Virus record (IMG/VR): IMGVR_UViG_3300046522_000237 | Span: 1 to 39,109 of that record | Reading direction: 5' to 3' (one strand) | DNA: 39,109 nt | Source: a virus | Shown: positions 1-36,677 of the stretch, piece after piece | Numbering within the stretch: the stretch's first letter is position 1 | How the letters are laid out: each line of letters opens with the position of its first letter | The notes under the pieces: generated by a model | Told to the model about the DNA's origin: nothing | Database searches by the model: none | Seen by the model: the letters and a program-made list of their open reading frames with translations, nothing else | Translations under genes and position numbers: made by a program

Positions 1-135
1 GCGGCTGCGCGGCTTCCTCGATGCGCGCGGCGTACGCGGCGAGCGATTCGACCTCGGCGGGTGCTGGGGGCGGTGCCGGATCCTGTGCCGGCGGCGTTTC
101 CACGGCCGGCGGCTGCGCGGCTTCCTCGATGCGCG
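1..135. repeat. 135-bp direct repeat of the window ends (left copy)
   Basis: Bases 1-135 are identical to 38975-39109. The copy is itself flanked by a 27-bp repeat (1-27 and 109-135), so it reads R-X-R with R = 27 bp and X = 81 bp. The window starts exactly at the first base of R and ends exactly at the last base of R; the neighbouring bases differ. R plus X is 108 bp, or 36 codons, and lies inside a coding region. This marks a circular sequence, and possibly a collapsed tandem repeat. Confidence 0.95.
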
Positions 136-220
136 GCGTCTCTACATGTTCGAGCGCGGGCGGCGGCTCGACCGGCTTCTGTTCGACCGGCGGCGCCGGG
201 GTTTTTCCGTTACGTGCCAT
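1..220 (-). CDS. N-terminal part of a Pro/Glu-rich protein split by the window ends
   Basis: The ATG at 220 opens a frame that runs off the left edge and continues at 38974-38847 when the sequence is circularised, giving 115 residues in total. The N-terminal 75 residues are low-complexity Pro/Ala/Glu. They contain the octapeptide RIEEAAQP twice, about 36 residues apart, which is the coded form of the 27-bp DNA repeat. The start overlaps the end of the upstream 99-residue gene by 11 bp, which suggests translational coupling in the portal-to-scaffold stretch. The family is not recognised. The position suggests a head-assembly accessory or small structural protein; this is inference. Confidence 0.75.
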   Translation of the reverse strand, partial: MARNGKTPAPPVEQKPVEPPPALEHVETPRIEEAAQPPAVETPPAQDPAPPPAPAEVESLAAYAARIEEAAQP

Positions 221-509
221 TGATCCTCCGTGTGACGGCTTCCGCCTTGGTTTCCATGTTTTCGCGCAGCAGAATCTCGTGCTGCGCAACCGTTGCGCCG
301 CCCATGAGCGACGTAAAGATGGCCTCGAACTGGTTCGCCGCCCACAGGAGGCGCTTCAGTTCTTCGGCCTGGGCCTTGTTCTCGACCGGCAGCGCGGCCC
401 AGCTCTCGGTGATCGCGAGCCGGGTCTCCCGCATCGCCTCCTGGAAGAGCGGGTCTTCGAGCAGGCGCTTCGCGTGCTCGCCGCGTGCGATCTGTTCTTC
501 AGGGGTCAT
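210..509 (-). CDS. Small helical protein next to portal (99 aa)
   Basis: The ATG at 509 overlaps the portal stop codon (ATGA), so it is probably translated by coupled reinitiation. The sequence is almost entirely predicted helix, with many Glu, Ala, Leu and Arg and no membrane segment or cysteine. Small helical proteins in this position, directly after a P22-type portal, are common in podoviruses and usually unnamed. It may be a head-assembly or portal-associated factor; that is inferred from location only. Its stop lies inside the start region of the next gene. Confidence 0.8.
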   Translation of the reverse strand: MTPEEQIARGEHAKRLLEDPLFQEAMRETRLAITESWAALPVENKAQAEELKRLLWAANQFEAIFTSLMGGATVAQHEILLRENMETKAEAVTRRINGT

Positions 510-2539
510 CCGTACGGTCCTTTATTGCCGGTAAAGTGGTCAGCGGTAGCGGCGCCCAGCTGCTGCGCGTGCGCCAGGTCGCCCCGGTCATCGCGCAGCA
601 TGCGGTGCTCGAGCTCGATGTGCTTGAGGCCCAAGTCGATCTCCTTTATCCGGACCTCCTTTTCCTTGAGCCGCAGCTCGATGCCCTTCAGTTGGGTCTC
701 GGCCTGCAATTTCGCGGCCGCCATCGCAATATCGTGCTGCGCCTGTTCGCGGCGACCTTCCTGCTTGATGCGCTCGACCTCGATCTGCGCTTCGGCAAGC
801 ATCTGCTCGGGCGACTTCTGCGGCTCGGGCTTCTCGGCTGTGCTGGGATCAGTCAACAGGCGCGTCTCGCCACCCTGAATGTTGCCGGCCTTGAGCAGCA
901 TCTTGCCCAGGTTGTAGACGTTCTCCGGCGTCACCACGCCCAGCGGCGCGGCCTGCTGGAAGTAGGCGCCCATCATCGACAGGAACTGGATCGTCTGCGA
1001 CTTGTCGCCCGTGCCCAGGCCCACGTTGATATTGACGTCCATTTCGGCCGACCAACTGCGCGGGTCGTATTCCACCCACGTGTTGCGCAAGCGGATCGTC
1101 GCCGGCTTGTCCTGGTACTCGCATGTCAGCTTGAGCAGGCGCTTGCATAGGTCCTTGCAGCCCGTCTCGGCGAAGATACGGAGCATCATCAGCTCGCGCT
1201 TCTGGTCGCGGGTCTGCGCGATCTGCGCGCCGGTAGCGGTCTTGTTGAGGCTGTCGGCGTCGAGGCCCTGGTTGAGGCGGCTGACGCCAACGCGCTCCTC
1301 GCGGACCGTGTTCATCAGCTCGATGCCCTGGAGCGACTCGTTGGCCACGAGCGAGGTTTGCAGCGGGCCGGCCATGCCGGGCTGCTTCATGCGCACCACC
1401 TTGCCAATGCGCGTACTCAGCAGGTCGTCCAGATCCACCTGGCCCAGGACCGCATACGTGGTCGGGTTGTTCGCCAGGTACAGCGAGTCCAGGTACTGAC
1501 GCTGCAGGCTGGTCTTCGTATCCTGAATCGACACGACCGGATCCGCCAGGGCCATGCCGATGATGCGATGGGGCAGCAGGATCGGGGACCACAGGCAGTA
1601 CTCGTGGTCGTCGACTTCCTCGTTCTCCAGGATGTCGTTGCCGGCCATGAAGACCCGGCGCCATTCAGCGATGCCGTCGCCGTCGAAGTCCAGGCGCACG
1701 AAGCCGAAGAACAACGTGATCTGCTGCAGCGCACCGTCGCCGGATTCGCCGGGTGTCGGTGCGTCAGGATCGCGCTCGTTCGACAGTGTCTCGGCTGCTT
1801 GGTAGTCCGACAGCAGCTCGACGCGGCCCTGCTTGAAGCCCATCTCGACCAGATCGGAGCGGGTGTACGTGCGCAGCTCACCGATCGCGGTGACGTCGGC
1901 CAGCTTCTTAGCGCCGCGGGTGAGGATGAAGCTCTCGGGCGGCACATTGTCGATGCGCACGCCGCGCGGGCCGCCGTCGACCAGGATCTCGACGTCGTGC
2001 AGTTGCAGCGCTGGATCGGTCGGGTCAGCGTAGGCGTCGTGCGTCGTGATCGTGATTCGCTGGTCCTGCACCATGCTTACCAGCTGCTGGTCGGTCAGGC
2101 CCGTGTACGATTCCTTCTTCTGCTTGCTGGTGCCATCCCACCAAGCGCGCACGATGCCGACCTTCGACAGCAGCGCATCCTTGATCCACGTGTTGAACAG
2201 GATGAAGCCATCGTTCTTGTTCTTGATCAGGTGGTTGATGACGTCGGTGGCCTGGTCGGCGTACTCCTCGTCGCCTGGCGCGGCCGGTTCGAACTCGCAG
2301 ATGTTGTCGCCGGCGAAGAACGGCTCGAGCAGCGAGGGCAGGGCGGACTCGATCACCTCGAACACATCCCAGCTCACGACCTGGCTGCGGCCCGGCACCT
2401 CGTTGCCCATCGGCAGACCATGGTAATAGCCAAGGTTGCGCTCGCGGTCGGCAGCCAGCTGCGAGCCGGTCCAGGCGGCGGACTCGCTTACTTCACGGTC
2501 GACCGCGCTGCGCAGCTCGTCGTCGGTCATTTTGGTCAT
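506..2539 (-). CDS. Portal protein, P22-type
   Basis: This is the dodecameric portal that forms the DNA entry and exit channel at one capsid vertex and docks the terminase. It is 677 residues, close to P22 gp1 (725). The N-terminal region contains the segment YYHGLPMGNEVPGRSQVVSWDV, typical in style of this family: a tyrosine- and glycine-rich start, then a helical, acidic body. The C-terminal 100 residues are a long charged helix rich in Glu, Lys and Gln, like the P22 portal barrel. I chose the ATG at 2539 because it overlaps the terminase stop (ATGA); an upstream in-frame ATG at 2578 would lie inside the terminase gene. Confidence 0.93.
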   Translation of the reverse strand: MTKMTDDELRSAVDREVSESAAWTGSQLAADRERNLGYYHGLPMGNEVPGRSQVVSWDVFEVIESALPSLLEPFFAGDNICEFEPAAPGDEEYADQATDVINHLIKNKNDGFILFNTWIKDALLSKVGIVRAWWDGTSKQKKESYTGLTDQQLVSMVQDQRITITTHDAYADPTDPALQLHDVEILVDGGPRGVRIDNVPPESFILTRGAKKLADVTAIGELRTYTRSDLVEMGFKQGRVELLSDYQAAETLSNERDPDAPTPGESGDGALQQITLFFGFVRLDFDGDGIAEWRRVFMAGNDILENEEVDDHEYCLWSPILLPHRIIGMALADPVVSIQDTKTSLQRQYLDSLYLANNPTTYAVLGQVDLDDLLSTRIGKVVRMKQPGMAGPLQTSLVANESLQGIELMNTVREERVGVSRLNQGLDADSLNKTATGAQIAQTRDQKRELMMLRIFAETGCKDLCKRLLKLTCEYQDKPATIRLRNTWVEYDPRSWSAEMDVNINVGLGTGDKSQTIQFLSMMGAYFQQAAPLGVVTPENVYNLGKMLLKAGNIQGGETRLLTDPSTAEKPEPQKSPEQMLAEAQIEVERIKQEGRREQAQHDIAMAAAKLQAETQLKGIELRLKEKEVRIKEIDLGLKHIELEHRMLRDDRGDLAHAQQLGAATADHFTGNKGPYG

Positions 2540-3987
2540 ACGATTCCCAGTGATTGATAGTTGAGGCTTCCGCCCCATGGCTTGTCGATGTCGCCATATG
2601 CGATTGCATGGCGCCGCATCATGTAGGCGTAGCGCACAGCGTCGAGTATGTCGTCGCGGGTCTTGGCGATCTTCCCGTCCTTGCGGTGGTACTGCAGGAA
2701 CTCGTCGAAGAAGTCGCGCAGGCCGGCGAACACCTTGAAGCGGCCGCTCATCATCAGGTCGCGGATTTCAAATACGCCGGCTTCGACGCCGTTACCTCCG
2801 TCCGGCCACGTGGCTCGCTCGAGCAACATGTTGAATCCTGCCTGCTCGTAGTAGGTCTTCTGCTGCTCGCCGCTGCTCTTCTCCGTTTGCAGGCCATCGG
2901 ACGGCCAAGCCGTGGGCACGCCATTCGCCCAGGACTTCACCGCGCCCCAGGCCTCGATCGGCTTGGTCTGCGCCTTCTTCCAGGCCTTCGTGAGGTAGAA
3001 CATGTCGCCTTCGGGGTCGAACACCAGCTGCACGTGCGCCTGCGGGTGGTCCCAGCCGAAGTCCATGCCGTCGATAACGCGGAAGTGCTTCGGGATCGCG
3101 AACGGCTCGCAGGTGATGGCGTCTTCGGCCAGGTCGTAAATTCGTCCGTGTCCCAGCATCGGGACTCCTTTCGTTCGCATGTCGCGTTGGTGCGCCGGGT
3201 AGCTGGCCAGCAGGCCTTCCTTTGCCTGCGTGCTGAGGTGGGGCGCATCGTCCCAGCCCTTCTGCATGCATATCTGCGCCGGCGAAGGCGTGTCCATGAA
3301 CTGGATCACCAGCTCGGTGCGACCGTTCTCCGGCGTGAAGGTCAGGATGCCGCGCCCGCCGGCACCCTTGTCGCCGGTAGCGGTACGCGTCAGCACCTGG
3401 GGGAAGATGGTCGGATCCCGCGGCTCCTCATCGATGTGGAACCAGTCGACGCTGTCGCCCATCAGCGCGTGCTGCCCCTGCGAGTACGACCAGAACTGGA
3501 TCGCGGCGTCGCTGGCCTGCACGTCACCGCCGCCGATCTGGCGGATGTAGACGGTGCGCAGCGCATTCGGCGTGCCGGACATTGCCTCGTAGCCTTTGAT
3601 GTGCTCGGGCGGGATCAGCCCGCCGGAGAACTTGCTGCCATCCTTCCGGCCGATGATCGGCTCCTGCAGCAGGTCGCGTGTCTTCTCGCCCGAGTAGCCC
3701 AGGCACCAGATCAGCGGCGCGTGCCCGAACGTGTGGCCCTCCCAGTCGTCCGGGTAGTCGCCCATGGCGTGGATCGCGTCGAGGTAGGTGCCGGTGTACG
3801 TCTTGCCGATCCGGTTGGCGGCGATCAGGCACACCTGGGTGTGGGACGCCGTGTTGGCGTTGAATTCACGCTGCCAGCCGTACAGCTTCTGGTGCAGCGC
3901 CTTGTAGCGGTAGACCCGGGCGCGGCGCTCTTTTTCCTGGAGCAGGGCGAGCAGACGCTCCTTTTCGGCCCTACTCGACGCCGTCAT
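2536..3987 (-). CDS. terL: Terminase large subunit
   Basis: This is the packaging motor: an ATPase that translocates DNA through the portal plus a nuclease that cuts the concatemer. It has 483 residues. The N-terminal ATPase carries a Walker A of the deviant viral type (AANRIGKT, residues 56-63) and a Walker B (WFHIDEEP, acidic residues 185-188). The C-terminal RNase-H-like nuclease begins at DGMDFGWDHP (Asp306, Asp309) and has a late acidic motif, DDILDAVRYAYMM. The length and motifs fit the Terminase_6 type found in Sf6- and SU10-like phages. It overlaps terS by 17 bp and the portal start by 4 bp. Headful packaging is the expected mode. Confidence 0.95.
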   Translation of the reverse strand: MTASSRAEKERLLALLQEKERRARVYRYKALHQKLYGWQREFNANTASHTQVCLIAANRIGKTYTGTYLDAIHAMGDYPDDWEGHTFGHAPLIWCLGYSGEKTRDLLQEPIIGRKDGSKFSGGLIPPEHIKGYEAMSGTPNALRTVYIRQIGGGDVQASDAAIQFWSYSQGQHALMGDSVDWFHIDEEPRDPTIFPQVLTRTATGDKGAGGRGILTFTPENGRTELVIQFMDTPSPAQICMQKGWDDAPHLSTQAKEGLLASYPAHQRDMRTKGVPMLGHGRIYDLAEDAITCEPFAIPKHFRVIDGMDFGWDHPQAHVQLVFDPEGDMFYLTKAWKKAQTKPIEAWGAVKSWANGVPTAWPSDGLQTEKSSGEQQKTYYEQAGFNMLLERATWPDGGNGVEAGVFEIRDLMMSGRFKVFAGLRDFFDEFLQYHRKDGKIAKTRDDILDAVRYAYMMRRHAIAYGDIDKPWGGSLNYQSLGIV

Positions 3988-4414
3988 GGGCTGCGGCCGC
4001 GCTGGCCTTCGCGATCTCGGCCTCCAGCTCGGCGTCGGTCATCGTCTTGATGCGGTGCTCGATCGCGCCGCCGCCTTCGCCGGTCAGCTGCATGCGGTTG
4101 CCGTACTTCTTTGGCTTCATGCGTTGGGCCTGCTCGACCCGGGCGTGGATCCGCAGCTTGGCCTTGCGGATCGAGTCGGCATCGACGCGGCAGTTGTCGG
4201 CGATGTCCACGATCTCATCGATCAGGGTGTCGGCTCGCTCGTCCGTGGCCACCTCGTAGGCTGCGGCGAACTCGGGATGCTCCCGCAGCCAGCGGAACAC
4301 AGCGGACTTGCTCGGCATGCCGTCGAGCTTGCACGCGGCGCGGATCGTCTTTCCATCCGCGATCGCCGCGCAGAACTTGTCAGCCAGTTCGGGCGTGTAG
4401 GTAGTCGCGGTCAT
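3971..4414 (-). CDS. terS: Terminase small subunit, Sf6-like
   Basis: This is the DNA-recognition subunit that selects the phage packaging site and hands DNA to TerL. It has 147 residues. The N-terminal helix-turn-helix spans about residues 20-48 (GKTIRAACKLDGMPSKSAVF, then RWLREHPEF), which matches the Sf6-type small terminase layout. A central helical oligomerisation region follows, then a basic patch (RMKPKKYGNRMQL) and an acidic C-terminus. It is the second gene of the late operon, after the 89-residue exported protein. An intrinsic terminator lies only about 12 bp upstream of its start, so expression should depend on readthrough. Confidence 0.9.
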   Translation of the reverse strand: MTATTYTPELADKFCAAIADGKTIRAACKLDGMPSKSAVFRWLREHPEFAAAYEVATDERADTLIDEIVDIADNCRVDADSIRKAKLRIHARVEQAQRMKPKKYGNRMQLTGEGGGAIEHRIKTMTDAELEAEIAKASAAAAHDGVE

Positions 4415-4425
4415 AGGTCAGGAAT

Positions 4426-4450
4426 AAAAAAGCCAGGCGCTCGGCCTGGC
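4426..4450 (-). terminator. Intrinsic terminator just before terS
   Basis: On the minus strand a stem of GCCAGG with CCTGGC and a 7-base loop is followed by six T residues. It lies between the 89-residue gene and terS, about 12 bp before the terS ATG. Leftward transcription should stop here unless antiterminated. Confidence 0.85.
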
Positions 4451-4582
4451 AAGGCCCTGGGGTGGGCAGGAGACATGTTGTGGCGGCCACGAGGGCCTCA
4501 CGCGTTCAGCGCTTGACCACACGGCTGGGCGGTCCCATGCGTGTGGTGACTGGTTACGCCAGTCAGGCGCCGCCCATCGAGG

Positions 4583-4852
4583 TCAGCGGTGATTTCGGCG
4601 GTTGCGCGCGATGCCGCGCTTCTTCGTGGCGGTACGACGCTGCTGCGCCATCGAAATGCAGGCGCCCTTGCGGCCGTAGCGGGCTGCGGAGGGAATGGCG
4701 CCACCGAACAGGCCGCGCTTGCTCGACTTGGTCACGCGAGGTGCGGACTGGACAAGCGCCGGCTGCGATGCGATACCGGGCGCGGCGCCCATGCCGAGGC
4801 CCAAGGTGGCGGCCAGGACGAAGGCGAGCCGGCGGCGAATCGATCCGAACAT
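4583..4852 (-). CDS. Small exported basic protein (89 aa)
   Basis: The ATG at 4852 has a good ribosome site (CAGGAG, 5 bases upstream). The N-terminus looks like a signal peptide: basic MFGSIRRR, then a hydrophobic stretch of about 15 residues, then a small-residue cleavage region (GIASQPA). The mature part is short and very basic, ending RRTATKKRGIARNRRNHR. The gene stands alone between two intrinsic terminators at the head of the late operon, before terS. I do not recognise a named family. Its place in a Q-controlled leader recalls small late-leader genes of temperate phages, but no function can be assigned. Confidence 0.7.
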   Translation of the reverse strand: MFGSIRRRLAFVLAATLGLGMGAAPGIASQPALVQSAPRVTKSSKRGLFGGAIPSAARYGRKGACISMAQQRRTATKKRGIARNRRNHR

Positions 4853-4876
4853 GTTTTCTCCTGGGAGCGGAAACGG

Positions 4877-4908
4877 AAAAGCCCCGCGTCATTGCTGATC
4901 GCGGGGCT
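4877..4908 (-). terminator. Strong intrinsic terminator in the late leader
   Basis: An 8-9 bp GC-rich stem (GCCCCGCG with CGCGGGGC) and an 11-base loop are followed on the minus strand by TTTT. It lies between the Q-like gene (ends 4996) and the 89-residue gene. This is the position of the lambda tR' terminator relative to Q and the late genes. The 130 bp between Q and this hairpin should hold the late promoter, but I see no convincing -35/-10 pair there. Confidence 0.85.
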
Positions 4909-4995
4909 TCGATGTTTGCCTAGAGACGCCGGGGGCTCCCATCTGGGAACCGGCCTCGTCGTGTTTCTAGACGGAATTAAGTTGTGACACGGAAT

Positions 4996-5421
4996 TTACT
5001 GCTGAGCTTTCCGGCTGTCAAGAAATTTCGTTCGGGAATTCTTTGCGGCGTTGTTTTGCTCGGCGAGCGCCTCGATCGCGACCTGGGCCTCCCGGAACAG
5101 GCGCACGAACTCCGTGGCTGGACGATTGGGGATACTCAGTCTCTTGCAGACCAGGTCGGGCGGCGCCTGGCGGATGTAGCACCACCACAGGAGCAGGCGC
5201 TGCTTCGTGTCGAGCAGCGGCATGCTGCGCTCGAACAGCAGGGCGTCAGCCTCGTCGATACGGCGGCGTTCGTCTGGCGCGCGCGAGGTGTCGCCCTCGG
5301 CCTCGCGGCGTAGTCGATCGCAAAAGGCGGCGGTCGGGCTGGACGCGGGCCGCCGTTCGTTGGCGGTGGCCCAGCGGCCCCAGTTCTCCAGGCGTGATCC
5401 GATGTCGCGGCGTTCGGTCAT
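4996..5421 (-). CDS. Putative antitermination protein Q-like
   Basis: This would let RNA polymerase read through terminators of the late operon. It has 141 residues. The central segment around residues 70-110 (LLDTKQRLLLWWCYIRQAPP, then VCKRLSIP) has the pattern of phage Q-type antiterminators and other sigma-4-like DNA-binding proteins: a YI-rich helix followed by C--L-I. It is the last early leftward gene, with the late leader and terminators directly downstream, which is the classical Q position. The ATG at 5421 overlaps the stop of the 23-residue peptide (ATGA). It could also be another small DNA-binding regulator. Confidence 0.6.
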   Translation of the reverse strand: MTERRDIGSRLENWGRWATANERRPASSPTAAFCDRLRREAEGDTSRAPDERRRIDEADALLFERSMPLLDTKQRLLLWWCYIRQAPPDLVCKRLSIPNRPATEFVRLFREAQVAIEALAEQNNAAKNSRTKFLDSRKAQQ

Positions 5422-5489
5422 GAGCAAACCCACAGGATCAGGCCGAAGGCCGCGCCGAAGCAGAGGGCGATGAGGAGGCGTTCGGTCAA
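5418..5489 (-). CDS. 23-residue single-span membrane peptide
   Basis: A TTG start at 5489 sits inside the RusA stop (TTGA overlap) and has an excellent ribosome site, GGAGG, about 6 bases upstream. The product is a short polar head (TERLL), then about 17 hydrophobic residues (IALCFGAAFGLILWVC), then a terminal Ser. The stop overlaps the Q-like start (ATGA). Conserved overlap on both sides and the strong ribosome site argue that it is translated. No family is known to me. It may act at the membrane or serve only to couple translation of RusA and Q. Confidence 0.55.
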   Translation of the reverse strand: MTERLLIALCFGAAFGLILWVCS

Positions 5490-5962
5490 GCTGCCTCCGC
5501 GAAGAGCCCCGATTGTGGCTGCACCGTCGGGATCGCCGTGATCGTCACCACCACGCGCGCTTCGCCGTCCGGCTCCATGCGCTCGCTGGTCAGGCGCCGC
5601 ACCCACTTGTCGTCCTCGATCGCCACGTCCTTCAGCGAGTCGAGCAGCACCTTGTTGGCGTTGTCCAGGTCCAGGCACTGCACACCATCGTCCCAGGCCG
5701 CGCCGAGCTTGCGCTGCCGTGCCTGCCAGTCGAGGGGACGGTGCGGGTAAAGCTGGACCTCGATGTGCACGCGGCCGGGCAGCGGTCTGCGCACGCCGGC
5801 GGCGGCCACGATGGCCTCGACGGTCGCCTTGAACGCCTTCGCCTCGGGCGTCACGTAGGTCATGGCCATGGCCTTGCGCGCGCCCTTGGCCGGGACGGTG
5901 CGGGTTGCCCAGTAGCGGTTCGCGCTGATCGGGTAGGGCAGGGTGAGGGTGATCGGTTGCAT
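5486..5962 (-). CDS. rusA: Holliday junction resolvase RusA
   Basis: This endonuclease resolves Holliday junctions and branched DNA formed during phage recombination and replication, acting as a dimer. It has 158 residues. The N-terminus LTLPYPISANRYW is the typical RusA opening. The catalytic core follows: LDLDNANKVLLDSL at 97-110 with Asp98, Asp100 and Lys104, then acidic residues at 117-118 (IEDDKWV). This spacing matches the three Asp and one Lys of RusA. The ribosome site is CAGGAG. It is the third-last early leftward gene and is coupled to the membrane peptide. It works logically with the YqaJ recombination genes on the other arm. Confidence 0.93.
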   Translation of the reverse strand: MQPITLTLPYPISANRYWATRTVPAKGARKAMAMTYVTPEAKAFKATVEAIVAAAGVRRPLPGRVHIEVQLYPHRPLDWQARQRKLGAAWDDGVQCLDLDNANKVLLDSLKDVAIEDDKWVRRLTSERMEPDGEARVVVTITAIPTVQPQSGLFAEAA

Positions 5963-6027
5963 GCTGGGCTTTCTCCTGTCGTTGTTGTTGTCGCCCGGGC
6001 TGGCCGGGCGGGGTGGTGCTGTTGCGG

Positions 6028-6936
6028 TTATTCGACGGTCAGCCAGTCTTCGGCCAGGGCATCACTGCCGCTGGGCGCCCAAGTGCTGACGGTGTCGTCG
6101 GCGCCCTTGAGCGCGAGGTAGGCGTTGTACGGAACCATGGCGCCTTCGCCGAAGTGCGCCTTCGCGGCGCCGGTCTGCACCGGGTAGCTGGCGGCCGGCA
6201 CCAGGTAGACGAACATGCCCTTGCCGTTCCATCCCGCGCGCGCCACGCGCTTGCCTGCCTTCAGGGCGCACAGCGCGGTGCCGAAGCTGAGCCCTGCAGT
6301 CGCCGACAGGCCACCGCCAATGCTGGAGGGCGAATGGTCAGGCAGCGGCGCGGTACCGGTGAAGGTCGTGCCGTCGGCGTAAGCCTTCGTCTCGACCGTT
6401 GGCGACTCGCCGAGCAGAACGCGAACCGTGTTGATTGCCGCCTTGGTCGCATCGCCATCGATGGCCAGCTGGTAGTCGAAGGTTTCGCGGATATGGCCAT
6501 CGGTAAGCGGCGCGCCCACGATGTGCGCCTCGTACGCAGCTGCAGCGCTCAGCACGTCGTGATGGCCGGACAGGCCCGGCGTGCGCAGCGCCATGTCGAG
6601 CACCTGAGCGCGGAGGCTTTCGGCTGCGTAGTCGTGGCTGGCCGTGATGGCTTGGCACTTCGCCGCGTGCTGCTCTTCCTCGGCCTTCTTGGCCTGGCCG
6701 AGCTGGTACGGCATCCAATGCCAGGAAGGGAAGCAGGCCGGCTCTTGCTCCGGATCCGCGTGGGTGACGCTCTCCTTGGTGCAGCAGTCGGCGTCAGCGA
6801 AGCCGAGCGGGAACGCATACAGGTCTGCGTTGAACGGGCCATTGCCCTTGATGACGATCGCAGGGCGAATCTCGCCGTCGGCGCCGCGGTACCAGACGAT
6901 GCGGCCAGTGGTAGGGGTGATGTGGGTGGTGCTCAT
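6028..6936 (-). CDS. Multidomain protein with C-terminal Tad2 (DUF2829) anti-Thoeris domain
   Basis: The protein has 302 residues. Residues 216-302 match the Tad2/DUF2829 pattern: LSFGTALCALKAGKRVARAG, then WNGKGMFVYLV, a later AYLALKGAD, and a terminal WAPSGSDALAEDW. Tad2 proteins bind the cyclic ADP-ribose signals made by Thoeris ThsB and so block abortive defence. Here the domain is fused to about 215 upstream residues: a small beta-like domain starting GRIVWY (about 8-78, with Cys51, Cys52 and Cys68) and a helical middle region (about 85-180). The ribosome site is GAAGGAG. The gene sits among early nucleotide/DNA-metabolism genes, as expected for an early-acting anti-defence factor. The anti-Thoeris role is inferred from family membership. 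Confidence 0.85.
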   Translation of the reverse strand: MSTTHITPTTGRIVWYRGADGEIRPAIVIKGNGPFNADLYAFPLGFADADCCTKESVTHADPEQEPACFPSWHWMPYQLGQAKKAEEEQHAAKCQAITASHDYAAESLRAQVLDMALRTPGLSGHHDVLSAAAAYEAHIVGAPLTDGHIRETFDYQLAIDGDATKAAINTVRVLLGESPTVETKAYADGTTFTGTAPLPDHSPSSIGGGLSATAGLSFGTALCALKAGKRVARAGWNGKGMFVYLVPAASYPVQTGAAKAHFGEGAMVPYNAYLALKGADDTVSTWAPSGSDALAEDWLTVE

Positions 6937-6973
6937 GCTGCTCCTTCAGGTGGGTGCTGCGGTTGGTGGTGGG

Positions 6974-7282
6974 TTACAGGGCCAGGCCGTTCAGCACCGA
7001 CTCCAGGCGCTCGACCGAGATTTCGATGCGCTGTTCGAGGCTGCGGATCGAATCTCCGAGCGGCGACAGCGCCTCCTGCGGAATGCCGGTCGGATGCGGG
7101 GCGGTGCCAGCGCCGGTGGCGCCGGTGGCGCGCATCAGCGGGCGCAGTCGATCTTCAAGCGCTTCGACACGCGAGCCGAGGCGCTGCACCGAATTCGATG
7201 CGAGGTCGAGGCGGGTTTCGATTTCGGATGGCAGGCGCTCGGCCTGCACGGATTTCAGTTGGCAGCTGCTTTCGTTGTACAT
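6974..7282 (-). CDS. Coiled-coil protein of unknown function (102 aa)
   Basis: The ATG at 7282 has CAGGAG upstream. The protein has two heptad-like helices (about residues 20-50 and 70-100, with the pattern SVQRLGSRVEALEDRLR and a matching C-terminal SIRSLEQRIEISVERLES) joined by a Gly/Pro/Thr loop. This predicts an antiparallel or dimeric coiled coil. There are no catalytic motifs and no membrane segment. It lies between the HD hydrolase and the Tad2-domain protein in the early leftward operon. Not recognised. Confidence 0.75.
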   Translation of the reverse strand: MYNESSCQLKSVQAERLPSEIETRLDLASNSVQRLGSRVEALEDRLRPLMRATGATGAGTAPHPTGIPQEALSPLGDSIRSLEQRIEISVERLESVLNGLAL

Positions 7283-7340
7283 GTTGCATTTCTCCTGAGT
7301 TGCTGCGGTTGTGCGCTCGCGCGCGAAGTGGTCTCGTTGG

Positions 7341-7895
7341 TCAGGCTGGGGTCAGTGCGCCGCACAGCTCGTGGTAACGCGCCAGGAACGCGGCCTTCGC
7401 CGCGACTGGCGACATCGGGACGATGGTTTCCGGCAGCGCGGTCACGCCCTCCAGGATTCCCCAGTCCGTAGCGCGCCGGGTCATCAGGTCGCGCTGCTCG
7501 GTCTTGAGCAGGATGACGTCGGCAACCTTGATCTCGGGCGGCAGCTTCGGATCAATGCCAAAGCGCGTCAGCACCGCGTGCTCGATGCGCTTCTCGATCG
7601 CCTTGTAGTCGGGCAGCAGCGCCTTGAGCGGTCGCGACACGTCGCCGATGAACGCCTCGGCCGCGTCATGCAGCAGGCCGGCCAGCGCATGCTCAGGCGG
7701 CACGATCTGGCTCACCAGCACCGAGTGCTGCGCTACCGAGTAGAACGTGTGGACGTGGCCAGTGAAGCGGCAGACGTGCGACAGCGCGTGCGCGATGTCA
7801 TCGATCCCGAATACCGACTGCTCCGGCGTCAGGAAGTTGAAGTAGTGGCCCGAGTTCGTCAGGATGTCGGGGCGCATCGGGTGTGGACTGCTCAT
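7341..7895 (-). CDS. HD-domain phosphohydrolase, YfbR-like
   Basis: The protein has 184 residues and carries the metal-binding HD signature: an early His in [11 protein letters not shown] (His57), the His-Asp pair in [16 protein letters not shown] (His76-Asp77), and a later Asp ([13 protein letters not shown]). This arrangement is shared with YfbR-type 5'-deoxynucleotidases and phage HD hydrolases of similar length. The likely substrate is a nucleotide or nucleotide-derived signal, so a role in nucleotide pools or in removing a defence signal is possible but not shown. The ribosome site is very strong (AAGGAGGA). Its neighbours are the CxxC protein and the Tad2-domain protein. Confidence 0.85.
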
Positions 7896-7946
7896 CGTGT
7901 CCTCCTTGTTGTCGTTGTGGTACTGCGGTGCACTCGCGTGCGAATT

Positions 7947-8177
7947 TCACACCTTGCTGACCTTGCGATCTCTCGGAAACTGGTCTCGACTGACTGCCTG
8001 CTCGAGCTGCCTCGTCTGCCATGCCCCACGTTCGAGGAACAGCACGCAGGGCCGATCGGTCGAGAGAACCTGCTTGTCCCAGCCGCTGCAGTGGCCTGTG
8101 CGCTCGACGCCTTCTTCCTTGGCCAATGCCGGCGGGAAGCGGTTGCACATGCCGCAGGGCTGGTGGTCGTGGTTCAT
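7947..8177 (-). CDS. Small Cys/His-rich protein (76 aa)
   Basis: The ATG at 8177 overlaps the stop of the replication gene (ATGA). The N-terminus MNHDHQPCGMCNRF has a CxxC pair next to histidines, and Cys30 in GHCSGW adds another possible ligand. It may bind zinc. No other motif is seen and the C-terminus is basic. It is an early protein of unknown role, possibly a DNA- or protein-binding accessory to replication. Confidence 0.7.
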   Translation of the reverse strand: MNHDHQPCGMCNRFPPALAKEEGVERTGHCSGWDKQVLSTDRPCVLFLERGAWQTRQLEQAVSRDQFPRDRKVSKV

Positions 8178-9262
8178 GGGTTGGCGCCTTTCCGCCTGGC
8201 GAGTTCAGCAGCGGCGATGCGTGCCGCGTATTCCTCGTAGCTCTCGTCGAGGCCCTTGGGATCGGTGCCTTGCGGTGCTGGCGGTCGATACTCGGCAACC
8301 GATTTCAGGCGGAAGGGGCCTGGTGCTGCCATCGGTGGCGGTGGCGCAGCCTGCTCGGCCAGCAGCTGGTCGACGATGCGAGCCAGGTACTTGACCGGGA
8401 TGCCTTCACCGGGCTTTGCTGCCTTGGCCTTCATGACGGCGACGTTCAGCACCTCGTCGGTGACGTTCGGGTTCTGGCTCCAGGTCACCGCGACGATCGG
8501 ATTTTGCGAGGTCGTCACGATGCCTTGGGCGCGCAGCAGCAGCGTGATCTGCAAGGCGCGGGCCATCCCCTCGACCAGGTCGGCCGGCGATTCGATCGAG
8601 GAATCGTCGTCTCGTGGTGTTGGCGGTTGAGATGACGATGATTCGCTTTTAGAAGTTAACTCTCCCTTCTTCTCTCCCTCTCCCTTACACACCGTGACAC
8701 CCTGTGACATGTCACGCTCCATATCCGTGACATGTGGGGGTGGCTCTTGTGACAAGTATTGGGCGGCCATGCCGCGCAGCGTCTTGGTTGACACGTTCCA
8801 GTCCGGCGTGACACCGTGACGCTTGAGGGCTTCGAACAGCGCCTTGCGGTCTTCGCGCTCACGGGCTTTTCGCTCTGCGTCGGCGCTCTTCTTATGGTTG
8901 AATTCCTCGCGACCAGGCAGCGCAGCCAGCGCCTTCTCCGCCACGACAGGGTGGTACCAGCGATCATCCGAGCACAGGATCCAGCCGCGCATGGCGCCGG
9001 CCTTGATGCGCTTCCACTTGGCGGCATTGCCCGAGAGGTGAGCGAGCACCAGGTCTTTGTTCGGCAGGCTGGCGGCTGGCACCTGCGTCCAGCTTTTGCA
9101 CCAGAGCGCGACCGCGGCCTTGAATTCGTCGCCGCTGGTCTCGGCGAACATGTCGGAGTCGAGCAGGCGAATTACATCCAGCGGCATGTAGGGCAGACCG
9201 CGCAGGTCGCAGCCGGCGGGTGTGAGGGGATCAGGGAGATCCTGTTCGGTCGGCGCCGTCAT
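8174..9262 (-). CDS. DUF1376 (YdaU-like) replication initiation protein
   Basis: The protein has 362 residues. The N-terminal ~105 residues match DUF1376, which is found at the start of many phage replication proteins: LPYMPLDVIRLLDSDMFAET, then ALWCKSW, and GWILCSDDRWYHPVVAEKAL. The middle is charged and helical (KKSADAERKAREREDRKALF), followed by a Ser/Pro-rich linker. The C-terminal domain (about 240-360) may bind the host helicase loader. It is the likely O-like initiator, and the candidate origin repeats lie within its gene. No primase, helicase or polymerase gene is seen elsewhere, so the host replisome must be recruited. The start at 9262 overlaps the upstream stop (ATGA). Confidence 0.8.
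   Translation of the reverse strand: MTAPTEQDLPDPLTPAGCDLRGLPYMPLDVIRLLDSDMFAETSGDEFKAAVALWCKSWTQVPAASLPNKDLVLAHLSGNAAKWKRIKAGAMRGWILCSDDRWYHPVVAEKALAALPGREEFNHKKSADAERKAREREDRKALFEALKRHGVTPDWNVSTKTLRGMAAQYLSQEPPPHVTDMERDMSQGVTVCKGEGEKKGELTSKSESSSSQPPTPRDDDSSIESPADLVEGMARALQITLLLRAQGIVTTSQNPIVAVTWSQNPNVTDEVLNVAVMKAKAAKPGEGIPVKYLARIVDQLLAEQAAPPPPMAAPGPFRLKSVAEYRPPAPQGTDPKGLDESYEEYAARIAAAELARRKGANP
8640..8821. other. Candidate replication origin: GTGACA iterons inside the initiator gene
   Basis: On the plus strand GTGACA/GTGACG occurs at 8694, 8704, 8727, 8749, 8808 and 8816, and inverted at 8709-8715. Two of these form the 12-bp palindrome GTGACATGTCAC at 8704-8715. Next to the array (about 8640-8690) is a pyrimidine-rich, less GC-rich stretch that could be the unwinding element. 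The array lies in the linker region of the DUF1376 gene, as the lambda origin lies inside gene O. This is an inference from the repeats; part of the pattern could reflect codon choice. Confidence 0.55.
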
Positions 9263-9468
9263 GGTGGCGAAACCCCCGCCAGCTGCGAGTCGACAGTCCG
9301 CCGGCCGCCCCGTGCCCACTGCGCGTAGCAGTGGTCGTATTCGTCCAGCCAATCCCGGAGCGCGGGAGCACCCGGGTTCATACCGTGGGAGTCGCGGCCG
9401 GCGCCACGTTCGAATGCAACGCGGGCCCGGGCGCGGATGGTGTCGCGGGAAATGATCGAGTCGTTCAT
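9259..9468 (-). CDS. Small protein of unknown function (69 aa)
   Basis: It starts at the ATG at 9468, overlapping the previous stop (ATGA), and ends overlapping the start of the replication gene (ATGA), so it is translationally coupled on both sides. The N-terminus is mixed and charged (MNDSIISRDTIRARARVAFE), with a central aromatic patch (LRDWLDEYDHCYAQW). No known domain is seen. Its role is unknown; its tight coupling suggests a replication-module accessory. Confidence 0.7.
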   Translation of the reverse strand: MNDSIISRDTIRARARVAFERGAGRDSHGMNPGAPALRDWLDEYDHCYAQWARGGRRTVDSQLAGVSPP

Positions 9469-9644
9469 GGCGACACCGCATCGTCGATGACGCGGCGCAG
9501 CTGCTGGCGCGCGCGGTATTCCAGTTTCTGCTTCTGCGGGTCCTGCTTGTCGGCGATCGCCGCCTTGTCGATGCTCCTCCAGGTCTTTGCCTGGTGGGCG
9601 ATTCTTTCGTCCGGCGTCGCCTTGTTGGTCTCTTGGCCTTGCAT
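9465..9644 (-). CDS. Small helical charged protein (59 aa)
   Basis: The ATG at 9644 has a strong ribosome site (GAAGGAAAAG) and the stop at 9465 overlaps the next start. The product is almost fully helical and rich in Lys, Arg, Gln and Asp (for example KAAIADKQDPQKQKLEYRAR), with no cysteine or membrane segment. The gene is short but well supported by the ribosome site and the chain of overlaps. No family is recognised. Confidence 0.75.
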   Translation of the reverse strand: MQGQETNKATPDERIAHQAKTWRSIDKAAIADKQDPQKQKLEYRARQQLRRVIDDAVSP

Positions 9645-9657
9645 GGTTCTTTTCCTT

Positions 9658-9783
9658 CTAATCGGTGGCTACCCAGGCGAGGGAGCGCGGTTTGAAATCG
9701 CCCTTAAAGGTGCAGGCGCTTGCCGGCACCTGCTGCTGCTGCCCGGCCAGGGAAGCGCTGCACGTGGCCCTGACGATGGCCAT
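9658..9783 (-). CDS. Possible 41-residue protein overlapping the RHH gene
   Basis: The ATG at 9783 opens a frame of 41 residues (start MAIVRATCSASLAG) that ends 14 bp before the next gene. About four fifths of its third positions are G or C, like genuine genes here. The overlapping end of the ribbon-helix-helix frame has clearly weaker bias. The ribosome site is poor. It could instead mark a frameshifted extension of the upstream gene. Confidence 0.35.
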   Translation of the reverse strand: MAIVRATCSASLAGQQQQVPASACTFKGDFKPRSLAWVATD

Positions 9784-9979
9784 GGCGTGGCCATTCGCTT
9801 CGGCCTGGCCCAGTTGTACGATTCGTCGTCTGGCGGATGTGCGCGGTCACGAGGTCTCGCACGAACGGGGCAACTTTTTCACCGATGCCGGTGCAGAACT
9901 TGCGCAACTGGTCCTGCTCGACGTCGTTCAACGGGACCTTCAACGTGTTCTCGCGTTTCAGGTTTGGCTTGCTGCTCAT
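9704..9979 (-). CDS. Ribbon-helix-helix-like small DNA-binding protein (91 aa)
   Basis: The ATG at 9979 has AGGAG upstream. Residues 8-50 look like a ribbon-helix-helix: a short beta strand (NTLKVPLN), then a helix (DVEQDQLRKFCTGI), then VAPFVRDLVTAHI. This fold binds DNA as a dimer and often serves as a regulator. After about residue 50 the sequence becomes Arg/Gly/His-rich and loses the GC3 bias of a coding frame, so the tail may be disordered or the true gene may end in another frame. It is the first gene after cro and its terminator, so it is an early regulator candidate. Confidence 0.6.
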   Translation of the reverse strand: MSSKPNLKRENTLKVPLNDVEQDQLRKFCTGIGEKVAPFVRDLVTAHIRQTTNRTTGPGRSEWPRHGHRQGHVQRFPGRAAAAGAGKRLHL

Positions 9980-10056
9980 GGTTTTCTCCTTGTGGGGCGG
10001 CGGTTCAGGACTTCGGGTGCTGTGGATAAATGGACTGCGGGCAACTTTTCGGGCAC

Positions 10057-10083
10057 AAAAAAGCGGTCATCGATCAACCGCTT
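10057..10083 (-). terminator. Intrinsic terminator at the end of cro
   Basis: On the minus strand AAGCGGT pairs with ACCGCTT around a 9-base loop, followed by six T residues. The hairpin overlaps the cro stop codon. It resembles the position of lambda tR1: transcription from the cro promoter is limited here and the replication genes need partial readthrough or antitermination. Confidence 0.8.
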
Positions 10084-10297
10084 GCTGAACTTGTCTCGAC
10101 TGGCGGGCCGTACTGACCCCGTGATCCTTGGCCAATTTCTCCAGGCCGAGGATCACCTGGTAAGAGGGGCGTTTAACTCCGGCTTTCCCTGCCGCCATGT
10201 CGCTGATCGTTGGCTGCTTGAGCCCGATAGCGTTGGCGATCTGGGTTTGTGTTAGCCCGGCCTTTTGAAGTTCGGAGAGGATGTGTTGGATGTTCAT
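10067..10297 (-). CDS. Cro-like repressor (XRE helix-turn-helix)
   Basis: The protein has 76 residues with a helix-turn-helix at about 14-40 (LTQTQIANAIGLKQPTISDM). It is transcribed divergently from the S24 repressor, which is the Cro arrangement: it should bind the shared operators and favour the lytic programme. The ATG at 10297 lies 7 bases after a perfect -10 box (TATAAT), so the mRNA is predicted to be leaderless. No ribosome site precedes it. An upstream in-frame start at 10393 would lie beyond the promoter and is rejected. A terminator overlaps the stop. Confidence 0.88.
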   Translation of the reverse strand: MNIQHILSELQKAGLTQTQIANAIGLKQPTISDMAAGKAGVKRPSYQVILGLEKLAKDHGVSTARQSRQVQQAVDR

Positions 10298-10304
10298 GAA
10301 CGCG

Positions 10305-10333
10305 ATTATAGGAACTCCGATTTTAGAAGTCAA
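10305..10333 (-). promoter_or_regulatory. Leftward early promoter (cro promoter)
   Basis: On the minus strand there is a -35 TTGACT (10333-10328), a 17-base spacer and a -10 TATAAT (10310-10305), 11 of 12 consensus matches. The start is predicted at about 10298-10297, the cro ATG. Two operator palindromes overlap it, one on the spacer and -10 edge (10308-10321) and one abutting the -35 (10333-10346), so repressor binding should block polymerase. Confidence 0.88.
10308..10321. promoter_or_regulatory. Repressor/Cro operator 1
   Basis: The sequence is ATAGGAACTCCGAT. The arms ATAGG and CCGAT flank a 4-base spacer, with one mismatch from perfect symmetry. It covers the spacer and the first bases of the -10 of the cro promoter. 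It shares the AT(C/A)GG-N4-CC(G/T)AT form with four other sites in the window. Confidence 0.7.
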
Positions 10334-10346
10334 TCGGTATTCCGAT
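10333..10346. promoter_or_regulatory. Repressor/Cro operator 2
   Basis: The sequence is ATCGGTATTCCGAT, a perfect inverted repeat (arms ATCGG and CCGAT, spacer TATT). It abuts the -35 of the cro promoter and lies about where the -35 of the repressor promoter would be. It is the best candidate for the middle, OR2-like site. Confidence 0.8.
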
Positions 10347-10358
10347 CTGATGCCCACG

Positions 10359-10364
10359 GATAAT
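10359..10364 (+). promoter_or_regulatory. Repressor maintenance promoter (-10 box)
   Basis: GATAAT (5 of 6) at 10359-10364 points to a start at about 10371, the repressor ATG. No good -35 exists 16-18 bases upstream; the region is occupied by operator 2. This is the layout of a PRM-type promoter that needs activation by bound repressor. Confidence 0.55.
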
Positions 10365-10378
10365 ATCGGGATGTCTAT
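10365..10378. promoter_or_regulatory. Repressor/Cro operator 3
   Basis: The sequence is ATCGGGATGTCTAT. The left arm ATCGG is perfect; the right arm TCTAT is degenerate. It covers the predicted start of the repressor transcript and its ATG (10371), so binding here would shut the repressor off, as OR3 does in lambda. Confidence 0.5.
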
Positions 10379-11087
10379 AGGATCAAGAATCAAAGAGGCG
10401 CGCCGTGCTGCGAAGCTGACGCAGAAGGCGCTCGCCCAAAAAGTGGGGATGGCTCAGGCATCCCTTTCCGAGCTCGAAACTGGGGAATCGCAAGGCACGA
10501 CCATGATCGGCTCGTTCGCGGCCGCTCTCGGCGTGAGCGCGCTTTGGCTGGAAACGGGGAAGGGCTCTATGGGCCTGGAGTCCCTGGCCGCGGAGTCGAC
10601 GCCGCCGTTTGTTGAGACGGATCACGATCTCGCGGGCCGGCCGGTTCGCGCTGGCGATGAGGGCGATACCGTCGCCATTCCTCGGGTCAAGCTGCGCCTG
10701 CGTGCTGGAATTGCTAACTATGACACCGAGCCGGACATGAACGGTGATGGGCACGAAGTGGTCCCACGTCAAATCCTGACATCGCTGGGTCTGAACGAAC
10801 AGAACCTCATGGCTGTGCGTGTTCGAGGAACGAGCATGGAGCCGATGATGTTTGAAGACGATGTCGTCATCATCGACAAATCCGATACGAAGCCAATTAG
10901 TCGTGAAGTCTATGCCGTGAATTTCGATGGGGATGCGTGCGTGAAACAGCTGCTTTATCGCGGCGGTCAATGGTATCTGCATTCCCTGAATCCGGACCAT
11001 GGGCCGGTGAATGTGAAAAGCGGGCAGTGCAGTATTGTAGGGCGCGTAGTTATCCAGCCGACTCGGGTATTGACTGGGCGGTTATAA
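10371..11087 (+). CDS. CI-like prophage repressor, S24/LexA family
   Basis: The protein has 238 residues. The N-terminal helix-turn-helix spans about 6-55 (IKEARRAAKLTQKALAQKVG, then QASLSELETG). The C-terminal S24 peptidase domain has the nucleophile in VRGTSMEPMM (Ser155) and the general base in DACVKQLLY (Lys192), 37 residues apart as in LexA. A candidate self-cleavage Ala-Gly lies at 112-113, with another at 94-95. It should hold lysogeny and be destroyed after RecA activation. The start at 10371 is chosen because the -10 box lies 6 bases upstream, implying a leaderless mRNA; an in-frame ATG at 10350 is upstream of that box. Confidence 0.92.
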   Translation: MSIGSRIKEARRAAKLTQKALAQKVGMAQASLSELETGESQGTTMIGSFAAALGVSALWLETGKGSMGLESLAAESTPPFVETDHDLAGRPVRAGDEGDTVAIPRVKLRLRAGIANYDTEPDMNGDGHEVVPRQILTSLGLNEQNLMAVRVRGTSMEPMMFEDDVVIIDKSDTKPISREVYAVNFDGDACVKQLLYRGGQWYLHSLNPDHGPVNVKSGQCSIVGRVVIQPTRVLTGRL

Positions 11088-11135
11088 GAAAAGACGGAAC
11101 GGCACGTCAGTTTGCCGCATATGTATAGGTATGAA

Positions 11136-11567
11136 ATGAGAGGTTTTGCCTGGCTTGCGATGACCGCGATTTTGGTTTCGATTCCATCTTATGCGGCTAG
11201 TTGGTTCCCGCTTACAGGGGCTGAGGGCATTGAAGTGCACGTTGACGCTAACTCGGTTGCCCCCGCTGGGGCCGGCCTGATAAAGGCGTGGGTGCGGCAT
11301 TCATATGCCGAGACGCAAAACTCGCGCGGTTACCCGCCATTCAGCTACAAATCAAGCATACAGCTCTATCTATTCAACTGTTCAGAGCGGACTATGGGCA
11401 CCATCCAAGATGCTTTTTATTCTGGCGAGAGCGGTCAGGGTGATTCGGTTAACTCGAATACATACTCGCGAAAAAATGTTGTTTTTTCCGACGTAATACC
11501 AGGCACTATCGGCGAGGGGACTTTGGAATTTTCTTGCGGCTGGATGAAGCGTAAGAACAAAAAATAA
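11136..11567 (+). CDS. Exported Adhesin_E-like protein expressed with the repressor
   Basis: The protein has about 143 residues. The N-terminus is a clear signal peptide (MRGFAWLAMTAILVSIPSYA, cleavage near Ala-Ala-Ser). The mature part begins WFPLTGAEGIEVHVDANSV and has two cysteines (LFNCSER and EFSCGWM), a pattern like the surface-adhesin E family of proteobacteria. It follows the repressor by 48 bp on the same strand, so it should be made in the lysogen and may alter the cell surface or exclude superinfecting phage. Starts at 11121 (ATG) and 11112 (TTG) are also possible; 11136 gives the best signal peptide. Confidence 0.7.
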   Translation: MRGFAWLAMTAILVSIPSYAASWFPLTGAEGIEVHVDANSVAPAGAGLIKAWVRHSYAETQNSRGYPPFSYKSSIQLYLFNCSERTMGTIQDAFYSGESGQGDSVNSNTYSRKNVVFSDVIPGTIGEGTLEFSCGWMKRKNKK

Positions 11568-11774
11568 TCCCCGCCCATGGTGGCGCGGGGAGTAAGGTTC
11601 CGGAGGCATCCGGGACTGCGGCCCGCAAGCCGCAGAAGGTGAAAGCAGTGGATGGATTGGCCTAGGGCCAGCAAACCTTAAACTGCCGAGCTGACCGCGA
11701 ACCGGTGAGACGCCGGCGATCGGGGCGGAGACGTGCTGCAGCACGTTGAAGCAAGTGCAAGCAATCGCACTTTA

Positions 11775-11805
11775 AAAAAAACCGCCAACCCTTAACCAGT
11801 TGGCA
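11775..11805 (-). terminator. Minus-strand intrinsic terminator in the lysogeny segment
   Basis: On the minus strand GCCAAC pairs with GTTGGC around a 9-base loop, followed by GG and then a run of eight T residues (A at 11775-11782 on the plus strand). It would end leftward transcripts from the 75-residue gene at 12393, after they run antisense through the 45-residue gene. Confidence 0.75.
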
Positions 11806-11834
11806 GGCCTGCCGGCGAAAACAGGGCTTATGCC

Positions 11835-11930
11835 ATGTTCAAACTAGCGACCAAAGCAGTAAAGGTGGAAATCAATTTGTGGGCATTTGCAGCGCTACTG
11901 CAGGTGTTCGCAAACTGGATCTCTTCCTAG
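11835..11930 (+). CDS. Possible 31-residue hydrophobic peptide
   Basis: The ATG at 11835 opens a 31-codon frame (MFKLATKAVKVEINLWAFAA, then LLQVF) with a basic head and a hydrophobic tail, like a small membrane-active peptide. No clear ribosome site is seen and it lies in the hairpin-rich segment, just before the GUAA-capped stem. It may be chance. Confidence 0.25.
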   Translation: MFKLATKAVKVEINLWAFAALLQVFANWISS

Positions 11931-12025
11931 CGGACCGCGGGTCGGCGTAAGCCGGCCCGCACTGCTGATGATTGAACTGTACTTCATGACGGATCTGTTT
12001 ACAACAACCACTGAAGGAGTAGTTT

Positions 12026-19630: not shown

Positions 19631-20593
19631 ATGACCACTGCCGAAGACCGCGACCGCCGCAAAAACGACCGGCAACCGGGCCAACAGCTCGAATGGGACA
19701 CCGAGAAGCCGCTGATTGCCGCGGCGCTGTCTCACCTGGCGCTCGAGCGAGCCGCCGCGTGCGCCATTCAGATCCCGGATACCGACCCGCCGCTGTACGT
19801 GGCGATCGGGACGCCGGAAACGATCGGGAAGCTGATGGAGATCGACCGGCCCGACACCTCGGCACATGGGCGGGAAGGCGAGCATGCTGGACGCTTCGAC
19901 CGCGTGACGCCGCAGCCTGACGGTTCGTTCCAGCACTCGTATCGGGGCGAGCCGGTGGCGGGGCCAACGCGCGTCGCCGCCCCTGCTACTGGCGCACTGG
20001 TAGCGATGCCCGAGGACGCGCTGCATTTCTTGGCAATCGCGATGGTGGGCTTCAATGGCCGCAAAGACGCAGGCTATGCGGAAGCACGCGCCGTACTCGA
20101 CAGCGTGCTGGCAGCGCCTCACATGAAGCGCATCTTCGCCGCCCCTGCTACTGACGCACTGGTAGCGGCACCGATCCAGATGATCCTGCATTGCCCGAAT
20201 TGCCACACGCAGCACATCGACGCGCCCGACGAGCGCACCGCCAGCTGGACGAACCCGCCGCACCGGTCGCACCTCTGCCACGCCTGCGGCGACATCTGGC
20301 GCCCGGCTGACGTTCCGACCGAAGGCGTGCGCGCCATCCGGACCAAGGGCAGCAACGACTCGGAAAGCGCAGCGGCACCGGCAGAGCCGACCGACGAACA
20401 GTTGCGCGATGCCATCGCGGACGGCCTGCGCGGGCTGTACGGCTGTGGCCGCGCGTGGAGCGCGTGGAGCGTCGGCACGATGTCGGAGGACGATTTCTAC
20501 CCTGCCGATGAGTCGGACGAGTGCATCACGCAAGTGTTCGACGCTATCCGCGCCACCCATCAGCCTACCGTGCAGGAAGGCGGTGCCGTATGA
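19631..20593 (+). CDS. Mosaic protein with zinc-ribbon segment and internal duplication (320 aa)
   Basis: The N-terminal part (1-110) is a small alpha/beta domain. Residues about 112-125 (RVAAPATGALVAM) and about 168-180 (FAAPATDALVAA) are duplicated linkers, encoded by 32-bp repeats with one mismatch, 162 bp apart. A zinc ribbon follows, with CPNCHTQHID and later HLCHACGDIWRP: four Cys plus His. The C-terminal part (about 255-320) is a separate helical domain. Such modular proteins are seen in phage early regions (Ea-like), where domains shuffle. The ATG at 19631 follows the previous stop by two bases; the end overlaps the ASCH gene. Function unknown. Confidence 0.8.
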   Translation: MTTAEDRDRRKNDRQPGQQLEWDTEKPLIAAALSHLALERAAACAIQIPDTDPPLYVAIGTPETIGKLMEIDRPDTSAHGREGEHAGRFDRVTPQPDGSFQHSYRGEPVAGPTRVAAPATGALVAMPEDALHFLAIAMVGFNGRKDAGYAEARAVLDSVLAAPHMKRIFAAPATDALVAAPIQMILHCPNCHTQHIDAPDERTASWTNPPHRSHLCHACGDIWRPADVPTEGVRAIRTKGSNDSESAAAPAEPTDEQLRDAIADGLRGLYGCGRAWSAWSVGTMSEDDFYPADESDECITQVFDAIRATHQPTVQEGGAV

Positions 20594-36369: not shown

Positions 36370-36677
36370 CAGATGCGGCCCTCGTAAATACGGCATTTGC
36401 TGTGCTCAGCCAGGAACTGGTCGAGCATCTTGTCCTCGCGTGCGACCACCTCCCAGGTGGTGCCGCGCTTCATCGCCCACTCGTTGAGCAGGTCGAGCGG
36501 AATGGATGCGGCGTAGTGGTCGCCGCCGTGGGTTTTGGTCGCACCTGCATTGCGGATCCGCTCGTTGCGCGCCAGCGCGGCGGACACATCGGTCGACTGC
36601 ACGATGACGCCGGAACCGTCGTTCTCGACCTGCATCGTCAGTTGGCTGTTGCTGGTGGCGTCAATGAGGTGTTTCAT
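36369..36677 (-). CDS. Small protein between coat and tail genes (102 aa)
   Basis: It starts at 36677 after a strong terminator and ends fused with the SGNH gene (TGATG). The N-terminus is beta-like (NSQLTMQVENDGSGVIVQST) and the C-terminal half helical (LLNEWAMKRGTTWEVVARED). It has no signal peptide. The position, downstream of the coat gene, suggests a head-completion or decoration role, but I recognise no family. Confidence 0.75.
   Translation of the reverse strand: MKHLIDATSNSQLTMQVENDGSGVIVQSTDVSAALARNERIRNAGATKTHGGDHYAASIPLDLLNEWAMKRGTTWEVVAREDKMLDQFLAEHSKCRIYEGRI

Follow-up and report, generated by a model that had tools for sequence, protein, structure and literature searches.

The question raised by this locus is whether the Tad2-like sequence at the end of a 302-residue phage reading frame is a genuine Tad2 domain and, if so, what part the sequence joined ahead of it may play. 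The window, meaning the whole stretch of DNA analyzed, is a 39,109-base virus record that encodes an integrase (PF00589), an S24-type CI-like repressor, an HTH Cro-like gene, an SU10-type portal and capsid and a Terminase_6 protein, and was therefore assigned to a temperate tailed phage. The closest deposited phage DNA to positions 1-12000 of the window was limited to one short stretch in the RusA region that matched an Achromobacter phage, and a PADLOC run returned only a chance match. The 302-residue reading frame lies on the minus strand, from 6936 to 6028, a strand not given in an earlier note on this DNA, and belongs to a series of genes in the order CI/Cro - replication - RusA - Q-like. 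In lambda-like phages this is where accessory genes of the delayed-early class are found; the position is consistent with early expression without proving it, and the description of an early gene in the earlier note is upheld as a statement of position. Two further features were observed elsewhere in the window: a 320 aa reading frame at 19631-20593 on the plus strand, possibly a modular phage protein, with a CPNC...CHACG zinc-finger-like stretch, and a 735 aa reading frame at 34189-36396 in the structural region containing a GDSL-like lipase/acylhydrolase domain.

A Tad2 pattern had been read in residues 216-302, and a profile search against PF11195, a structure prediction of the full protein and a survey of the fusion in other phages had been proposed. 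In the Pfam search residues 217-300 matched the Tad2-like family PF11195 (E=3.5e-22, 79.1 bits against a cut-off of 25, profile positions 2-72 of 73), confirming the pattern. The top match among PDB sequences by phmmer was ModTad2 (E about 6e-25), followed by AcrIIA7/HgmTad2, SPO1 Tad2 and SptTad2. A full-length AlphaFold2 model, built on a 30-sequence alignment, contained the Tad2 fold at pLDDT of about 74-94. When this model was compared with ten Tad2 entries by VIA-align 2, Z scores of 11.3-12.7 were obtained, the C-terminal part aligning with ModTad2 in complex with hisADPR (9eib) over 87 residues at 2.3 A (Z 12.7, 58% identity); structural identity to the SPO1, AcrIIA7/HgmTad2 and SptTad2 entries was 36-44%. 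All 20 of the Tad2 columns that are at least 85% conserved in 156 sequences are kept in the window domain, although conservation of GWNGKGMF is partly built into this sample since the peptide was one of the search patterns. A weak match to the transcriptional regulator family phrog_643 was also obtained (E=0.043). These data confirm a genuine Tad2 domain joined in frame to additional sequence, so that the protein is a 302-aa fusion rather than a single-domain Tad2 sponge of about 90 aa. No start codon was found between residues 140 and 231, nor was an internal start with a ribosome site found ahead of the Tad2 domain. The idea that an internal start allows Tad2 to be translated separately was accordingly rejected; for want of a plausible start codon at the domain itself, Tad2 would be made only as the fusion.

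The N-terminal beta domain proposed in the earlier note was borne out by a predicted barrel spanning approximately residues 1-76, with blocks within residues 11-60 at pLDDT 96-97 in the full-length model; the module modeled alone from a 64-sequence family alignment had a mean pLDDT of 89.6. This 'WMPYQ' module (hereafter N-module) is weakly related to phrog_2293 (residues 4-106, E=2.2e-5), a family matched by its relatives at E=1.5e-12 to 1.2e-5. Comparison of the barrel by VIA-align 2 gave Z scores of up to 6.9 with SAWADEE and about 5-6.6 with Tudor domains, values within the range of chance arrangements. Foldseek searches with the N-module returned no match at E 1e-3 among PDB or viral structures, and hhalign detected no homology of the barrel to the YIGTK module described below, to Tad2 or to gp49_66. 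The window version of the module was not matched in 50,697 phage records, in which a divergent stand-alone form matched one phage, PA8. The earlier description of two extra domains with a helical middle requires revision, as the model comprises one barrel, one helical arm and one disordered stretch: the helical character holds for residues 76-140 but not for residues 141-212, where pLDDT is below 50. The helical arm is common to L165, L002 and L198 among the fetched loci. Within the disordered stretch lies a VETKAYADG..TGTAPLPDHSP linker that also occurs in other phage proteins. In the form VETKxYADG..TGTAPLPxxSP it was observed in the window protein, in a Tad2 protein (L238:2866-3357) and in an unrelated non-Tad2 protein (L239:2845-3411). 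The positions of these segments and of the neighboring genes are given in Table 1.

Table 1. Features of the Tad2 fusion gene and its neighbors, in window coordinates
Feature	Position	Strand	Evidence or remark
Antitermination Q-like gene	4996..5433	-	phrog_79 E=3.2e-5; PF06530 below its cut-off
RusA-like resolvase, conserved downstream neighbor	5486..5962	-	PF05866 E=1.2e-22
Tad2 fusion gene, 302 aa	6028..6936	-	ORF; Pfam PF11195; stop codon 6028-6030
Tad2 domain, residues 213-302	6031..6300	-	Pfam, PDB sequence match, fold alignment, conserved columns
Predicted disordered stretch, residues 141-212	6301..6516	-	pLDDT below 50
Helical arm, residues 76-140 (helices 76-118, 125-140)	6517..6711	-	Model
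N-terminal 'WMPYQ' module, residues 1-82	6691..6936	-	Predicted barrel, perhaps Tudor/SH3-like, and start of long helix; AlphaFold2, phrog_2293, family alignment
AAGGAG Shine-Dalgarno-like site	6941..6946	-	4 nt ahead of ATG; read from sequence
Cys/His-containing protein, 76 aa, upstream neighbor	7947..8177	-	Conserved in 9 fetched loci
DUF1376 replication protein, true start uncertain	8174..9481	-	PF07120, phrog_22470

The protein is a mosaic in which the closest relative differs from segment to segment. Among the relatives compared, the nearest N-module is that of L011 (80% aa identity), followed by those of L002 (79%) and L022 (78%), the nearest middle is in L165 (58% and 68%) and the nearest linker in L238 (87% over 23 residues). 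The nearest Tad2 domain, that of L198, is 96% identical in amino acids and 91% in nucleotides, whereas the L198 N-module is only 38% identical. L165 contains the N-module and the same middle without Tad2. The fusion is kept under purifying selection, as supported by NG86 dN/dS ratios from pairwise comparisons of about 0.07-0.22 for Tad2 and about 0.2-0.66, mostly about 0.2-0.5, for the N-module, the maximum coming from the saturated L198 comparison.

The frequency of such fusions was surveyed with the whole protein in 80 viral and 80 genome loci, to which further loci were added for the N-module (9 and 65), the middle (2) and the RyR tail of L022 (38). Distinct complete ORFs were tallied in the loci fetched for the whole protein, the N-module and the middle, a sample selected for similarity to the window Tad2, and the counts are approximate since choice of the first possible start codon will have created some N-extensions. 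Fusions of a YIGTK module to Tad2 were the most frequent (56 ORFs), with Tad2 alone or with an extension of less than 45 aa in 52 and other N-extensions ahead of Tad2 in 19. The N-module was joined to Tad2 in at least 14 distinct ORFs and was present without Tad2, crAss001_48 or gp49_66 in 46; smaller classes carried crAss001_48 and gp49_66. Fused Tad2 is thus common, making up over half of the Tad2 proteins in the sample, and the rarity implied in the earlier note is not borne out. A literature search, covering few subscription journals, found no paper that describes Tad2 in fusion with Acb2 or with other modules. Several unusual arrangements were observed in the same sample. A single 428 aa chain (L058:4761-6044) contains a YIGTK module, Tad2, Phage_gp49_66 and crAss001_48. 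In L105:7686-8276 and L125:549-1139 Tad2 follows a module that starts with MKKLFISQPMNGKT or MKRLFISQPMKGKT and may be DUF4406/nucleoside deoxyribosyltransferase-like. In L196:3989-4606 the N-terminal barrel is followed by a Tad2-like tail that has no WNGKGM loop and may be a degenerate or altered Tad2.

BLAST searches with the window neighbors as queries showed that several relatives share the order DUF1376 - Cys/His - N-module protein - RusA - Q-like, and these neighboring genes recur among the fetched loci, although not every locus with this slot has every neighbor. The N-module in the slot carries Tad2 in L168, L178, L179, L180, L198 and, without a DUF1376 hit, L002; it carries crAss001_48 in L162 and L185, gp49_66 in L174 and another tail in L167. 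Payloads are thus exchanged at a single genomic position, which lies between the replication gene and RusA. Across about 240 fetched loci no counterpart of the HD hydrolase adjoining the window gene was detected at E 1e-5, and the 76-aa Cys/His protein had no family match. The earlier note had suggested an anti-defence and nucleotide cluster including the HD hydrolase and the Cys/His protein; the latter recurs, but a special cluster of this kind is not supported, as the HD hydrolase is not a recurrent neighbor. Fusions of the barrel to crAss001_48 were observed at L011:1453-2058 and L185:4001-4492, in the slot that Tad2 occupies in the window phage, and a PDB search with crAss001_48 for solved structures returned only spurious ubiquitin repeats.

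Beyond the domain identity, fold prediction and mosaic structure demonstrated above, the protein is probably a multidomain counter-defence factor in which a Tad2 sponge that captures a Thoeris signal of the ADP-ribose type is borne on an exchangeable carrier module. The Tad2 domain would most likely assemble as a Tad2-type oligomer, which for this family is a homotetramer whose signal pockets are shared, and sequester the ADP-ribose-derived signal, with the N-terminal, perhaps Tudor/SH3-like, module and helical arm acting as a putative carrier that phages set before various small payload domains. Being disordered, the linker would allow independent movement of carrier and Tad2, and the job of the carrier is most likely to be partner binding, targeting or multimerizing of the payload. 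It is conceivable, though doubtful, that Tad2 functions while the N-terminal module is a passive hitch-hiker, produced by frequent recombination in the cro-replication-RusA region joining unrelated small ORFs. Consistent with this, the N-module is mostly a stand-alone ORF of 90-120 aa, elsewhere joined to varied tails, and the linker motif too is shared by proteins that are otherwise unrelated. However, conservation of the barrel at the dN/dS values above and the number of distinct module-Tad2 ORFs in the sample argue against a passive module.

The carrier module is also linked to a second signal-binding family. In L022:4998-5633 an N-module 78% identical to that of the window protein forms a fusion with an RyR domain (PF02026, E=3.7e-10), L022 being on the same contig as L163, L175 and L268. 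A 2026 preprint describes RyR-domain proteins of phages (RyDEP) that either degrade 2'/3' cADPR or sequester it (PMC13232231), and residues H159, W162, H184 and D201 of L022 are spaced as the reported RyDEP ligand residues H75, W78, H100 and D117. With local profiles, gp49_66-like modules were found to precede RyR in six contigs (L240, L241, L245, L248, L263 and L266) and to be joined to Tad2 in L089 and L091, with a further gp49_66-Tad2 protein, L065, detected by Pfam. Two unrelated signal-binding families, Tad2 and RyR, therefore share accessory modules by association. For the N-module the link to counter-defence is associative, because the module also occurs alone in many phages and with domains of unknown function. 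We tentatively suggest that the WMPYQ barrel, Phage_gp49_66 and crAss001_48 may be unrecognized counter-defence modules, and that the replication-RusA slot may be a site at which counter-defence payloads are swapped behind a constant carrier. The shared fusion partners and shared slot offer a route to new candidate counter-defence domains among hypothetical phage proteins.

Small charged ligands and peptides are frequent binding partners of Tudor-like barrels, and a dual counter-defence factor could be envisaged in which Tad2 binds the Thoeris signal while the barrel recognizes either another signal or a protein of the defence system. Fusion of the module both to Tad2 and to RyR, whose members have been shown to bind cADPR signals or break them down, is in keeping with this, but the barrel matches Tudor-like domains at only Z 6-7, has no Foldseek match in the PDB at the threshold used and suggests no nameable ligand, making a dual role unlikely.

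For a single Tad2 sponge on a carrier, His-ADPR, the type II Thoeris signal, would be the most likely ligand because ModTad2 is the closest characterized relative, a prediction drawn from overall similarity to ModTad2. MoTad2 is reported to bind His-ADPR and in this way to inhibit type II Thoeris (PMC13299392). The long insertion of AcrIIA7/HgmTad2, described as a cyclic-dinucleotide site (review PMC12043709), was sought in alignments of the window domain and is absent. Loss of ligand binding, leaving the domain a structural or regulatory role only, is improbable: relatives such as L196 have Tad2-like tails without the WNGKGM loop and there is the weak phrog_643 match, but in the window domain the highly conserved residues are all kept and dN/dS is low. 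Least probable is that the domain is an AcrIIA7-type anti-CRISPR rather than anti-Thoeris since, although members of the fold bear the PDB labels 'AcrIIA7' and 'Inhibitor of Type II CRISPR-Cas system' (8kbi, 9kzr), several of these entries are complexes with cADPR and cGG and the window domain shares more identity with ModTad2 (58-61%) than with them (42-43%).

Among known systems, RyDEP and the phage RyR proteins (PMC13232231) resemble the window protein in that an RyR domain with matching ligand residues is also fused to a window-type N-module in L022, whereas RyR itself is an unrelated payload absent from the window protein. The phage proteins with YIGTK-SWSPK followed by Tad2 (phrog_872) likewise place an N-terminal module before a C-terminal Tad2, although that module has no detectable relation to the window N-module (hhalign probability 0.4%). 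AcrIIA7/HgmTad2 (8kbi, 8kbj and 8kbk) are alike in fold (Z 11.3-12.2), and the 158 aa chain of 9kzr also has residues ahead of Tad2, but these proteins carry the long insertion that the window domain lacks and are about 42-43% identical to it. SPO1 Tad2 (8sme/8smf), which binds gcADPR for type I Thoeris, is again alike in fold (Z 11.6-11.8) but more distant, with 41-44% identity, and is free-standing. Closest is ModTad2 of a Myroides odoratus prophage (9eib/8v3e), alike in fold over 87 residues with 58-61% identity and only a two-residue gap in sequence. ModTad2 is free-standing at about 88 aa, as characterized Tad2 sponges are mostly small single-domain proteins, whereas Tad2 in the window protein forms the last part of a longer chain and is an interchangeable payload.
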